DNA from: Prevotella sp.
GTDB lineage: Bacteria; Bacteroidota; Bacteroidia; Bacteroidales; Bacteroidaceae
Direction of reading: 5' to 3'
Assembly (NCBI GenBank): GCA_017940545.1
Contig: JAGAYI010000014.1
Span: 1 to 40,039 of the forward strand
Length of the DNA: 40,039 nucleotides
Part shown: positions 1,590-30,761 of the stretch, in pieces
Position numbering within the stretch: the first letter of the stretch is position 1
Layout: every line of letters begins with the position of its first letter
Notes under the pieces: generated by a model
What the model was told of the DNA's origin: nothing
Databases searched by the model: none
Seen by the model: the letters and a program-made list of their open reading frames with translations, nothing else
Translations under genes and position numbers: made by a program

Positions 1590-1952
1590 TCATAACTGTG
1601 TGGATAACTATGTTCATAACTTTATAATTTATCTACAAAACGGGATGTGGGGATGTGAAGAAAGGGATATCCACATGATTATTCTTGAGTTTTACGTAAG
1701 TTTTCCACAAAAAATGATGGGAAAAAGATATAAACTTATTAATTTTGCACCAGAATTGAGAAATGTGGATAAACAGCTTACCTGATTAATAATCAATAAG
1801 TAAACATCAACAATCATGTTGCATAACGTAAAAACCACAAGTGAATAAACAAATACGCAAACAAAACAGCTAAAAGTTTTCAACGTATCAACATCACATC
1901 ATACTACTCATTTCTATTTTTTAAAAAAAAGAAAATAAAAAATAAAGATAAT
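1590..1952. other. candidate replication origin (DnaA-box cluster and AT-rich region)
   Basis: No gene is supported between the array and nadA. Five DnaA-box-like 9-mers fall within 174 bp. Perfect TTATCCACA occurs on the minus strand at 1599-1607 and at 1764-1772. One-mismatch forms on the plus strand are TTATCTACA (1629-1637), ATATCCACA (1667-1675) and TTTTCCACA (1701-1709). To the right, about 1773-1952 is very AT-rich and could serve as an unwinding element. parS sites and mnmG about 27 kb away support an origin-proximal location. Against it, most genes to the right are on the minus strand. DnaA-dependent control of nadA is a lesser alternative. Confidence 0.5.
1740..1747 (+). promoter_or_regulatory. 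possible nadA promoter (-7 box)
   Basis: TAATTTTG matches TAnnTTTG. No good -33 element is visible, and the resulting leader would be about 200 bases and would include the DnaA box at 1764-1772. Confidence 0.3.
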
Positions 1953-26386: not shown

Positions 26387-28213
26387 TCATGGTTGGTGGA
26401 AATGCTGATAGACAATCTTTGCTTTGGCAGCACCCACGATGGCAGCCAGTTCCGTCTCGGTTGCCTGGCGAATCCTACGAACCGTTTTAAGACCGTTTAG
26501 GAGCCCGTCACGCGTTTTTGGTCCTATGCCTTGAATGTCGTCAAGCTCAGAGTGTAACGCGTGCTTAGAACGCTTCTCTCGGTGGAACGTGATGGCATAG
26601 CGGTGTACCTCGTCCTGCAGCTGTGTAAGCACGTGGAAGAGCTCGCTGTCGGTCTTCATGCCTATGACGCGCGCTGGGAAACCGTAAAGCAGCTCGTTGG
26701 TTCGGTGGCGGTCGTCCTTGGCAAGTCCTGCAATGGGTATGTCAAGGTGCAGCTCGTCCTGTACTGCCTGTCGGATGACCTCCATCTGCCCGCGTCCGCC
26801 ATCGGCAACAATGAGGTCGGGCAGGGGCTGACCCTCCTCCATGAGTCGGTGGTAGCGTCTCCATACCACCTCCTTCATCGAGGCATAGTCGTCGGGGCCC
26901 ACCACGGTCTTAATGTTATACTTGCGGTAGTCCCTTTTCGACGGTTTCATGGCCTTGAAAACCACACAGCCTGCTACGGCATCTGTGCCCGAGATGTTTG
27001 AGTTGTCGAAGCACTCAATCTGGTAGGGTAGGGTGGGTAGGTGCAGTAGCTCCTGCAGCTCCTTCATGAGTCGCGTCTGCTTCTGTTCCGGGTTCAGCTT
27101 CTCGGCTTGTTTCAGACGGTCAAACTTGTATTGTTTGCCGTTCATCAGCGACAGCTCGAGAAGTGTCTTCTTGTCGCCTCGCTGAGGTACGGTAATCGTG
27201 ATTCCCTCAAGGTCAACGTCAATTTCTGACGGCAGTATAATCTCCTTCGCGTCACTCTGGAAACGTTCGCGCATTTCGACAATGGCTAGTTGCAGTAGCT
27301 CCTTGTCACGCTCGTCCAGTTTCTTCTTATATTCGAACGTAAACGACTGGTTGACCGAGCCGTTGGCCACGTGTAGGTAGTTGACAAAGGCTGTCCGCTC
27401 GTCGTTGGTAATGGTGAAGACATCCACGTTGTTGATGGTGTGCGACACCACTTCGCTCTTGCTCACAAACGAGTCAACGAGCAAGTATTTCCGTTTCACT
27501 TCCTCGGCCTCTTCAAACTTCAGCTTCTCTGCCAGTTGCTCCATTTCCGCCCTCATGTCTCGCAACAGCTGGCGTGTGTTACCCTTCAGTATTTCGCGTG
27601 CCTGTTCAATGTTTCTTCGGTATTCATCGACCGACTGACGTGCTACGCAGGGCCCCTTGCAGTTCTTGATGTGATACTCTAAGCACAACTGGTATTTGCC
27701 GCCGTCAATACCCTCCTGTGTCATTGGTTGCCGGCAGGTGCGCGGGTGGTACAGTTTATTGATGAGTTCGAGTACAGCCTGCATGCTCCCGATGTGACTG
27801 TAAGGGCCGTAGTACGTACCCCATTTCTTGTTGATGGTTCGCGTCTTGAAGATGCGTGGTAAGAGCTCGTTGGTTATGCAGATGCTTGGGTAGGTCTTGC
27901 CGTCCTTCAGTAGCACATTGTAGCGCGGGTTGTACTTCTTGATGAGCGAATTTTCCAATAGCAGCGCATCCTCTTCGGTATTCACCACCGTGTAGCTGAT
28001 GTCGTGAATTTTTGAGACGAGAACCTTTGTCTTAAACCGATCTACCTCAGTATGGAAGTAAGATGACACACGCGACTTTAGGTTCTTTGCCTTACCTACG
28101 TAGATGATGGTGCCTTCGGCATCATAATATTGATAGCTGCCAGGTTTCTCTGGCAGCCTGCTCACTATTTGTTTTAGCTTCTTCAGCCTTGCTTCGTTCT
28201 CTTCCTTAGTCAT
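26387..28213 (-). CDS. uvrC: UvrABC excinuclease subunit C
   Basis: Makes the two incisions around bulky lesions in nucleotide excision repair. The 608 residues contain the GIY-YIG nuclease (PGSYQYY near 24-30, IIYVGKAKNLKSRVSSYF at 36-53), a UvrB-interacting UVR segment (MRAEMEQLAEKLKFEEAEEV), the RNase H-like C-terminal nuclease (PYQIECFDNSNISGTDAVAG and LIVADGGRGQMEV), and terminal helix-hairpin-helix motifs (DDIQGIGPKTRDGLLNGL). It follows apt with a 46-base gap that contains a parS site ending two bases before the uvrC ATG. Confidence 0.97.
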   Translation of the reverse strand: MTKEENEARLKKLKQIVSRLPEKPGSYQYYDAEGTIIYVGKAKNLKSRVSSYFHTEVDRFKTKVLVSKIHDISYTVVNTEEDALLLENSLIKKYNPRYNVLLKDGKTYPSICITNELLPRIFKTRTINKKWGTYYGPYSHIGSMQAVLELINKLYHPRTCRQPMTQEGIDGGKYQLCLEYHIKNCKGPCVARQSVDEYRRNIEQAREILKGNTRQLLRDMRAEMEQLAEKLKFEEAEEVKRKYLLVDSFVSKSEVVSHTINNVDVFTITNDERTAFVNYLHVANGSVNQSFTFEYKKKLDERDKELLQLAIVEMRERFQSDAKEIILPSEIDVDLEGITITVPQRGDKKTLLELSLMNGKQYKFDRLKQAEKLNPEQKQTRLMKELQELLHLPTLPYQIECFDNSNISGTDAVAGCVVFKAMKPSKRDYRKYNIKTVVGPDDYASMKEVVWRRYHRLMEEGQPLPDLIVADGGRGQMEVIRQAVQDELHLDIPIAGLAKDDRHRTNELLYGFPARVIGMKTDSELFHVLTQLQDEVHRYAITFHREKRSKHALHSELDDIQGIGPKTRDGLLNGLKTVRRIRQATETELAAIVGAAKAKIVYQHFHQP

Positions 28214-28215
28214 AT

Positions 28216-28231
28216 TGTTTCACGTGAAACG
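28216..28231. other. parS (ParB-binding) site 1
   Basis: TGTTTCACGTGAAACG matches the parS consensus TGTTNCACGTGAAACA at 15 of 16 positions, with a perfect 14-base palindrome GTTTCACGTGAAAC. It lies in the gap between apt and uvrC. Confidence 0.85.
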
Positions 28232-28259
28232 CACTCGTCCCTCACTCATCTCGTTTTCT

Positions 28260-28790
28260 TTAAAGTTTCAAGAGGGTGGTAATGTCAACAAGACCATCAA
28301 ACTCGTCACGCCCGTGCAATCCCTCGTCAGTTATCTCCATGATGAAGTTCATGTACACCTTCTTTGGGTAGAAATGGTTGACCAGTTTTAGTGTTGCCAT
28401 GGCCGTGCCGCCCGTTGCCAGCAAGTCGTCATGAATCAGCACCACGTCATTGCTGGTAATGGAGTCAATGTGCATCTCAACGGTGTCAACCCCATATTCT
28501 TTGGCGTACGACTCCTTGATGGTTGTGAAGGGCAGTTTGCCCGGCTTGCGTGCCATTACCATTCCTGCTCCGAGTTTGGCTGCAATAGCAGCACCCATGA
28601 TAAAACCGCGGCTTTCTATTCCAACTACCTTCGTAATGCCTTTGTCTTTATACAGCTCATACATTTCGTTGAGCATGATTTGCATGCACTCGGCATTTTT
28701 ATACAAGGTTGTTACGTCACGAAAGTTAATTCCTTTCTTTGGAAAATCAGGAATACAACGTAAATTCTCCAATAATACTTTGTTGTTCAT
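28260..28790 (-). CDS. apt: adenine phosphoribosyltransferase
   Basis: Salvages adenine to AMP using PRPP. The 176 residues are standard: the family N-terminus IPDFPKKGINFRDVTTL (13-29), ESRGFIMGAAIA (59-70), RKPGKLPF (81-88), and the PRPP-binding loop VLIHDDLLATGGTA (117-130). It lies between mnmG and uvrC on the same strand, and each flanking gap of about 46 bases holds a parS site. The three genes probably form one transcript from the mnmG promoter. Confidence 0.97.
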   Translation of the reverse strand: MNNKVLLENLRCIPDFPKKGINFRDVTTLYKNAECMQIMLNEMYELYKDKGITKVVGIESRGFIMGAAIAAKLGAGMVMARKPGKLPFTTIKESYAKEYGVDTVEMHIDSITSNDVVLIHDDLLATGGTAMATLKLVNHFYPKKVYMNFIMEITDEGLHGRDEFDGLVDITTLLKL

Positions 28791-28819
28791 TAGCTTTTTG
28801 ATATGATGATGTTGTTAAT

Positions 28820-28835
28820 TGTTCCACGTGAAACA
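28820..28835. other. parS (ParB-binding) site 2
   Basis: TGTTCCACGTGAAACA fits the parS consensus TGTTNCACGTGAAACA at every position. It directly follows the mnmG stop codon, 604 bases from site 1. Confidence 0.9.
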
Positions 28836-30761
28836 CTATCTGCCCATCAGCACCAGTAGGACGTTGATGTCGCTGGGTGAAACGCCGGGAATGCGACTGG
28901 CTTGTGCAAGCGTCTCAGGGTCGATGGTGCTTAGTTTCTGGCGAGCTTCGGTAGATAGGCCTTGCATTTCTTCGTAACGGAAATGTCCCTTTATTCTGAT
29001 GTTCTCCAACCTGCGCATCTTGTCAGCCACTATTCGTTCGCGGTCAATATAGCCCTTGTATTTCATCCTGATTTCTGCCGCTTCTGCTATTTCTTCCTTT
29101 CGGTGGTTCGGGCGATTTAGCACTTCTTTTAGTGCTGGCACCATTTCGCTGAGCGTGGCAAGCGACAGTTGTGGGCGACTAACCAGGTCAACGAGTTTAC
29201 AGCCGCGTTCGAGTGGGGTAGTACCTATGTGCTCCAAGCTACCGTTGATGTCTTTTGCCTTCACCGATGTGTTCTTGCAAAATTCCTCGATTTCTTCGAT
29301 GTGCTGTTTTTTCTCCATCCACCAGTCGTAGCGGTCTTGTCGGGCTAATCCCAAGTCGTAGGCCTTCTCGGTCAGTCGTGCGTCAGCATCATCCTGTCTG
29401 AGCAGTATTCGGTATTCCGCCCGTGAGGTAAACATGCGGTAGGGCTCGTCAACGCCTTTTGTCACTAAGTCGTCAATGAGTACGCCGATGTAGGCCTCGT
29501 CGCGTTTCAGTTCAAAAGCGCGGCTTATGCCAGTATCGCTACCTGCTTCGCTGGCCGTGAGTGCAGCGTTGATGCCGGCTATGGTCCCTTGTCCGCCTGC
29601 TTCTTCGTAGCCGGTGGTGCCATTCACCTGTCCAGCCATGAAAAGGCCCTTTATCACCTTCGATTCCAATGTGTGCGTCAGCTGTGTGGGGTCAAAGAAA
29701 TCATATTCTATAGCGTAGCCGGGGCGATACACTTTGGCATCTCTTAACCCGGGAATCTTCCTGAGGGCAGCTATCTGCACGTCCATCGGCAAGCTCGACG
29801 AAAAGCCGTTCAGGTACATTTCGTTGGTTGACTCGCCCTCTGGTTCCAGAAACAGCAGGTGCTGCTCCTTATCGGGGAAGGTCATTAATTTTGTCTCGAT
29901 GCTGGGGCAGTAGCGTGGCCCTATTGACTGTATCTGTCCGTTATAGAGTGGTGAGTCAGCCAGTCCTGAGCGGAGCGTCTGGTGCACCTCCGCGTTCGTG
30001 TAGCACATCCAGCATGGCAGTTGTTGCAGTTGTCTGTGCGCCCCCATATAGCTGAACTGGTGGAAATCGTTTTCTCCGTCCTGGCGTTCCATATCCTCGA
30101 AGTGGACGCTGCGCTTGTCAATTCTGACAGGTGTTCCAGTTTTCATGCGTGCCGAGCGGATGCCGTGCCGGCTGATACTTTCAGTAAAGTGTGGTACGGC
30201 AGGTTCAGCAATACGTCCGCCAGGTAGCATCTTCCGTCCTATGTGCAGCAAGCCGTTCAGGAACGTACCCGCGGTAATGATGACAGCCTTTGCCCTCAGC
30301 TCGCATCCCCAGATGGTGCGAACACCCACCACCTGTTTCCTGTGTTGCTGTGCTGCTGCCCCTGCAGGCACTTCTTCAACCAACAGCTCGTCGGCTTGGT
30401 CTTGCCAGATGTCAAGATGCTCGGTTTCATCAAGCACCCGCCGCCATTCCCAAATAAATTTGCCACGGTCGCATTGTGCCCTGGGGCTCCAGACGGCAGG
30501 GCCCTTTCCTTGGTTCAGCATGCGAAACTGAATGGCCGTAGCGTCAGTCACCAATCCCATTTGTCCGCCTAACGCGTCAATCTCGCGAACTATTTGTCCC
30601 TTGGCGATACCACCAACAGCGGGGTTGCACGACATTTGCGCAATCTTGTTCATGTCCATTGTGACCAGACATGTCTTGGCTCCCATGTTGGCAGCAGCCG
30701 TGGCCGCCTCACAACCGGCGTGGCCGCCACCAATCACCAATACGTCATAATTTTGTATCAT
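28836..30761 (-). CDS. mnmG: tRNA uridine 5-carboxymethylaminomethyl modification enzyme MnmG (GidA)
   Basis: An FAD enzyme that with MnmE installs the cmnm5 group on wobble uridine 34. The 641 residues begin with the dinucleotide fold VLVIGGGHAGCEAA (8-20). Family signatures are SCNPAVGGIAKGQIVREIDA, PGGRIAEPAVPHFTESI, and GQVNGTTGYEEAGGQGTIAG, with the helical C-terminal MnmE/tRNA-binding domain after about 500. The gene name gidA reflects its frequent place near chromosome origins, which fits the adjacent parS sites. Its ATG is six bases past the -7 box. Confidence 0.98.
   Translation of the reverse strand: MIQNYDVLVIGGGHAGCEAATAAANMGAKTCLVTMDMNKIAQMSCNPAVGGIAKGQIVREIDALGGQMGLVTDATAIQFRMLNQGKGPAVWSPRAQCDRGKFIWEWRRVLDETEHLDIWQDQADELLVEEVPAGAAAQQHRKQVVGVRTIWGCELRAKAVIITAGTFLNGLLHIGRKMLPGGRIAEPAVPHFTESISRHGIRSARMKTGTPVRIDKRSVHFEDMERQDGENDFHQFSYMGAHRQLQQLPCWMCYTNAEVHQTLRSGLADSPLYNGQIQSIGPRYCPSIETKLMTFPDKEQHLLFLEPEGESTNEMYLNGFSSSLPMDVQIAALRKIPGLRDAKVYRPGYAIEYDFFDPTQLTHTLESKVIKGLFMAGQVNGTTGYEEAGGQGTIAGINAALTASEAGSDTGISRAFELKRDEAYIGVLIDDLVTKGVDEPYRMFTSRAEYRILLRQDDADARLTEKAYDLGLARQDRYDWWMEKKQHIEEIEEFCKNTSVKAKDINGSLEHIGTTPLERGCKLVDLVSRPQLSLATLSEMVPALKEVLNRPNHRKEEIAEAAEIRMKYKGYIDRERIVADKMRRLENIRIKGHFRYEEMQGLSTEARQKLSTIDPETLAQASRIPGVSPSDINVLLVLMGR

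Follow-up and report, generated by a model that had tools for sequence, protein, structure and literature searches.

Judged from its sequence and from comparison with related genomes, the pair of palindromes flanking apt in the window (the whole stretch of DNA analysed, 40,039 nucleotides) can be assigned with high confidence to a ParABS system as its chromosomal centromere (parS), which would lie beside mnmG by very old linkage. It is very probably a known kind of element, origin-proximal and in an unusually well-kept place; the result of greatest interest is the phylum-wide tie between parS and mnmG. This reading is favored because of the sequence and rarity of the sites, the presence of ParA-like and ParB genes, the conservation of the pair, and its nearness to DnaA boxes and, in relatives, to a switch in GC skew (Table 1).

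Table 1. Location and identification of the features considered in the window
Feature	Positions	Strand	Description	Sequence or match
Putative parS site 1	28216-28231		between apt and uvrC	TGTTTCACGTGAAACG; 15/16 to TGTTYCACGTGRAACA
Putative parS site 2	28820-28835		between mnmG and apt	TGTTCCACGTGAAACA; 16/16 to TGTTYCACGTGRAACA
mnmG (gidA)	28836-30761	minus	tRNA uridine-5-carboxymethylaminomethyl synthesis enzyme	TIGR00136, 770.6 bits
apt	28260-28790	minus	adenine phosphoribosyltransferase, flanked by both sites	NF002636, 194.2 bits (cut-off 125)
uvrC	26387-28213	minus	excinuclease ABC subunit C, downstream of site 1	TIGR00194, 511.3 bits
apt/uvrC intergenic gap	28214-28259		46 bp	
mnmG/apt intergenic gap	28791-28835		45 bp	
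Candidate oriC	1599-1772		AT-rich non-coding, upstream of nadA	five DnaA boxes in 174 bp
nadA	1953-2945	plus	adjoins candidate oriC	Pfam NadA, 393 bits

A near-perfect parS pair, agreeing with the consensus at 15 and 16 of 16 positions, had been proposed by the first-pass annotation, and both 16-mers were found where it placed them. As it also described, one site ends two bases from a start codon, since the ATG of uvrC follows 2 bp beyond the end of site 1; site 2 directly adjoins the stop codon of mnmG and lies 29 bp from the start codon of apt. The successive 46-bp gaps of that description hold for the apt/uvrC interval, the mnmG/apt interval being 45 bp long. Based on their shared strand and the short gaps between them, we infer that mnmG, apt, and uvrC form one operon. 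The parS consensus is quoted as TGTTTCACGTGAAACA, with two mismatches allowed, in the excerpt of PMC10197239, and each of the two real sites differs from it by just one mismatch. Allowing up to three mismatches to TGTTTCACGTGAAACA, two matches were observed in the window against 0.20 expected, a number reached by one of 100 shuffles. Copies of the 16-mer were few and not scattered across the genome, in agreement with the proposed parS pair: at up to two mismatches, the two window sites, both at mnmG-apt-uvrC, were the sole matches in the source genome. This genome is available as a draft (2.2 Mb, 65 contigs, 70.5% completeness), and its missing part could contain further sites.

The same genome encodes a ParB (198.6 bits to TIGR00180) with a ParA-like frame directly upstream of parB, the latter recognized on visual inspection by the motif KGGVGKTTT, and ParB was above the cut-off in all 14 genomes searched. 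The ParB of this genome aligns with solved Spo0J/ParB chains and, at the positions separating ParB from Noc, has R and G (GKSR and GHAR, compared to GKGQ and RHAR in Noc); according to the excerpt of PMC7383237, which provided the reference, R173 and G201 occur in all extant ParB orthologs and are replaced by Q and R in Noc. By these residues, the protein is predicted to have parS-type specificity. The usual, not universal, partner loaded at ParB-parS is the SMC condensin. The SMC model TIGR02168 gave nothing above its cut-off in the source genome (70.5% complete), and the top-ranked PF02463 (SMC_N) matches that were listed for 13 near-complete relatives all fall within frames no longer than 757 aa, the highest-scoring ones being RecN- or RecF-sized (names assigned from length). 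No full-length SMC was found among the matches listed in the 14 ParB-bearing genomes, which comprise the source genome and 13 genus relatives. This absence among the listed matches fits the condensin result of PMC10197239, whose excerpt describes no known condensin in B. caecimuris and M. intestinale, yet the chromosome arms of B. caecimuris align.

Within the genus, 120 of 150 genomes, including the source genome, carried at least one match with up to one mismatch to TGTTYCACGTGRAACA, and exactly two matches were present in 88 of them. Among the good-quality genomes the proportion with a match was 66/68, while 30 of the 150 genomes had no match at this threshold, two of these being of good quality. 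Three genus genomes had four to seven matches instead of two (G111, G049, and G074), and G009 and G026, each 99% complete, had zero. When 30 genus loci (L003-L032) were cut around one match each, mnmG and apt adjoined parS in 28, the exceptions being one locus without mnmG, apt, and uvrC (L003) and another with uvrC only (L028).

The analysis of Bacteroidales was anchored on mnmG, with sites scanned at up to two mismatches in 80 loci plus the window (81 in total). By script, parS was located behind mnmG in 73 of the 81 loci, window included, and eight were scored as lacking it, one of which (L066) does have a site, its stop codon having been misplaced. Considering the 68 loci with apt, one parS on each side of this gene was observed in 36 (36/81 of the whole set) and a site before uvrC in 39. 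Prevotella-like loci commonly have the apt-flanking pair, which is shared by some loci labelled Bacteroidaceae or Bacteroidales (L083, L086, and L091, for example), and loci named Bacteroides or Parabacteroides have the mnmG-side site only. The first-pass annotation had pointed to conservation of the palindromes in relatives when genes shift, and this was borne out, with both sites kept beside mnmG even without apt: L067 and L073, in which apt was not detected, still have both between mnmG and uvrC, 82-83 bp apart. Six Parabacteroides loci without apt have kept the single site behind mnmG. Besides, three loci (L047, L058, and L021) showed an identical central change in both sites, CACATG (CATGTG on the other strand) replacing CACGTG, as if the sites were changing together, perhaps with ParB.

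Across the order and the phylum, mnmG was found within 1.5 kb in 51 of the 58 loci cut around parS (25/29 in the order and 26/29 in the phylum). These loci had been chosen by their parS, and the linkage test was therefore repeated starting from mnmG, a gene present in all 60 phylum genomes. With the source genome excluded and up to one mismatch allowed, 52 of the 59 phylum genomes had parS in the sequence flanking mnmG (1.5 kb at most), this being on both sides in 22, downstream only in 16, upstream only in 14, and on neither side in seven; in 50 of the 59 it lay no more than about 150 bp from an end of the mnmG match. As a control, 50 palindromes scrambled without a change in composition were run in the phylum scan, and none of them matched any locus. 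The linkage was particularly regular in family f73, where both ends of mnmG had a site no more than about 20 bp away in 12 of 13 members. Five of the seven genomes without an mnmG-side site had matches elsewhere, and the scan of the whole genome gave no parS match in G242 and G262. By comparison with the 26 of 29 phylum loci that have mnmG within 1.5 kb of parS, neither apt nor uvrC occurred within this distance in any of the 29. Thus, across the phylum parS accompanies mnmG, whereas apt and uvrC do not.

Very old linkage, around which the genes differ between lineages, is the most likely explanation for the position next to mnmG. Two factors would have preserved this linkage, namely the need for a centromere to remain close to oriC and a parS-mnmG interval of only tens of bp. 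No report of the parS-mnmG link was found in the literature searched, and an earlier report, for example in a classic parS survey, is possible. It could also be proposed that the link is functional and not frozen, with ParB loading tuned by RNA polymerase as it traverses mnmG or by the operon's state, or with ParB dampening the operon post-replication. Such a function would agree with the tightness of the link in those 52 genomes, whichever side of mnmG is occupied, and with the fact that apt and uvrC are not neighbours outside the order sample; however, the short interval makes breakpoints rare, so that selection on the pairing is not needed, and the seven genomes without the link, five of them with matches elsewhere, argue against it. 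We regard a functional link as unlikely. Slightly less credence is given to the broader proposition that transcription of the mnmG operon and ParB loading mutually control each other phylum-wide, in cells without canonical SMC, which, if true, would mean that origin segregation is coordinated with a tRNA-modification/repair operon after each replication round.

The first-pass annotation had suggested that the spreading of ParB could affect transcription of these genes, and such an effect on mnmG, apt, and uvrC could go either way: the excerpt of PMC7022226 describes parS-adjacent genes that are unaffected in B. subtilis and, in P. aeruginosa, repression of the genes behind a pair of intergenic parS sites. 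The P. aeruginosa case lends some plausibility to the idea that the palindromes are not mainly a centromere and serve as regulatory operators, mRNA leader elements, or RNA hairpins of apt and uvrC, as does the spacing between the sites and the start codons that follow them, for which counting began at base 1 of each site in mRNA orientation. This distance was 49-50 bp for the apt start in 21 of 56 sites, the same 21 varying from 0 to 234 bp in their distance from the mnmG stop, and 53-57 bp for the uvrC start in 13 of 36 sites; the leaders of L033-L112 showed that spacing to the preceding stop varies widely where the start-codon distance is fixed. Neither spacing is found in the window (45 bp for apt and 18 bp for uvrC), and the absence of apt and uvrC from the parS surroundings of all 29 phylum loci, against the frequent presence of mnmG, argues against a leader function. 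The spacing hints at a relation between parS and the leaders, and shared ancestry of the leaders could also fix it. Altogether, we consider a mainly regulatory role improbable, to the same degree as the mutual control mentioned above.

The RNA hairpin version of this idea was rejected, given that base pairing of position 5 with position 12 is not conserved: when the sites are read in mRNA orientation, C5-A12, which cannot pair, outnumbers the wobble T5-G12 both behind mnmG (33 against 9 of 78 sites) and before uvrC (11 against 6 of 40 sites). Likewise, inspection of the leaders by eye revealed no constant promoter-like element between parS and the starts of apt or uvrC that would indicate promoter overlap. 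Several uvrC leaders among L033-L112 contain a short inverted repeat between parS and uvrC, for example CCTTTATATAAAGG in L037, whose arms seem by eye to differ together between loci; this repeat was not seen in the 2-bp gap between site 1 and uvrC of the window. Finally, chance, whose sole argument is that random sequence can produce short palindromes, retains practically no probability, being ruled out by the two sites observed against the expectation of 0.20 in the window (up to three mismatches), by their being the sole matches in the genome, and by a placement conserved in many genomes across the genus, order, and phylum.

The centromere reading also draws on the position of the pair relative to the putative replication origin. 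The candidate oriC, 27 kb from the parS pair, includes two exact TTATCCACA boxes and three with one mismatch, and its DnaA-box cluster score of 7, compared to a best score of 4 in 60 control 20-kb pieces, was reached by none of 100 window shuffles and none of 1000 local shuffles. DnaA-box-like words in the window numbered 14 against 8.35 expected, a total that is not striking, as three of 100 shuffles reached 14; the striking feature is the clustering of the boxes and not their total in the window. Directly beside the candidate oriC, a CRISPR-like array was recognized by eye (102-1567), with about 22 copies of a 36-bp repeat that starts with GTTGTGG and ends with ACAAC, the last copy being truncated; the window starts within the array-side flank, which leaves no cas genes visible there.

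The gene nadA was found in 12 of the 14 genomes. In all six genomes with nadA within about 75 kb of parS, a DnaA-box cluster with a score of 7 to 10 was present upstream of nadA, the nadA-parS distances being 27 kb in the window, about 31 kb in G061, 33 kb in G024, about 47 kb in G137, 67 kb in G045, and about 74 kb in G042. Upstream of nadA in the remaining six genomes (G084, G075, G132, G010, G124, and G146) no DnaA-box cluster was observed, and one cluster that nadA does not adjoin lies 31 kb from parS in G010. Overall, the distance from cluster to parS was 27-74 kb in seven genomes, namely the window and six relatives at 31-74 kb, and the 80-120 kb examined around parS contained no DnaA-box cluster in G016, G084, G132, G146, and G075.

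Additionally, two of the three single-contig relatives (G024 and G045) had GC3 skew that changed sign at the parS region, with mostly negative values along one flank and positive values along the other. A switch near parS together with a reverse switch at a distance of about half the chromosome fitted 20 of 20 skew samples in G024 and 17 of 20 in G045, the switch lying within about 100 kb of parS in both genomes and the DnaA-box cluster in the same stretch, at a resolution of 10-kb bins that were too noisy to pin the switch. The finer 10-kb bins around parS were noisy in the window and in all three relatives, G016 displayed no clear GC3-skew pattern, and plain GC skew across the window did not locate the origin. 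The origin-proximal domain put forward in the first-pass annotation is consistent with two inferred markers, the DnaA-box cluster 27 kb away and the GC-skew flip in two of three single-contig relatives, and the location of the parS pair in the origin region is thus supported at the level of sequence. Drawing on established knowledge of ParABS systems, ParB dimers would bind each parS site, load as CTP clamps, and slide over the flanking mnmG-apt-uvrC DNA, and ParA would move the ParB-parS complex so that newly copied origin regions separate.

The chromosomal parS sites of B. subtilis, Caulobacter, and P. aeruginosa share with those described here the same 16-bp palindrome, the small number of origin-clustered copies, and the presence of ParA-like and ParB genes. 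In contrast to those systems, the three single-contig relatives have parB 0.4-1.1 Mb and dnaA 0.7-1.2 Mb from parS (assuming circular chromosomes), the sites are inside the mnmG-apt-uvrC operon, and no full-length SMC is among the listed matches. A closer parallel within the same phylum (Bacteroidetes) is offered by the parS clusters of B. caecimuris and Muribaculum intestinale, where, according to the excerpt of PMC10197239, parS and GC skew place the origin, the origin is not always at dnaA, and known condensin was not found. The origin domain of B. caecimuris was seen by Hi-C in that study, whereas ours is predicted from sequence, and mnmG, apt, and uvrC, which are present beside our sites, are not mentioned with the parS clusters in the excerpt. 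The same excerpt leaves open the mechanism by which Bacteroides chromosome arms align without known condensins (PMC10197239).

Taken together, these observations allow the centromere and origin to be approached from sequence in a group of major importance in the gut and rumen, in which the origin is not marked by dnaA. In fragmented metagenome assemblies, contigs from the origin could be recognized by a parS linked to mnmG. Moreover, parS and mnmG have long stayed linked, parB lies elsewhere, and the listed matches include no full-length SMC, a combination that makes the role of ParB-parS in these bacteria directly testable. In Firmicutes and Proteobacteria, the origin cluster has the order mnmG(gidA)-rsmG(gidB)-parA-parB. 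The arrangement described here shares with that cluster an mnmG near the origin and parS, and differs from it in that parS stays with mnmG, whereas parB is elsewhere.
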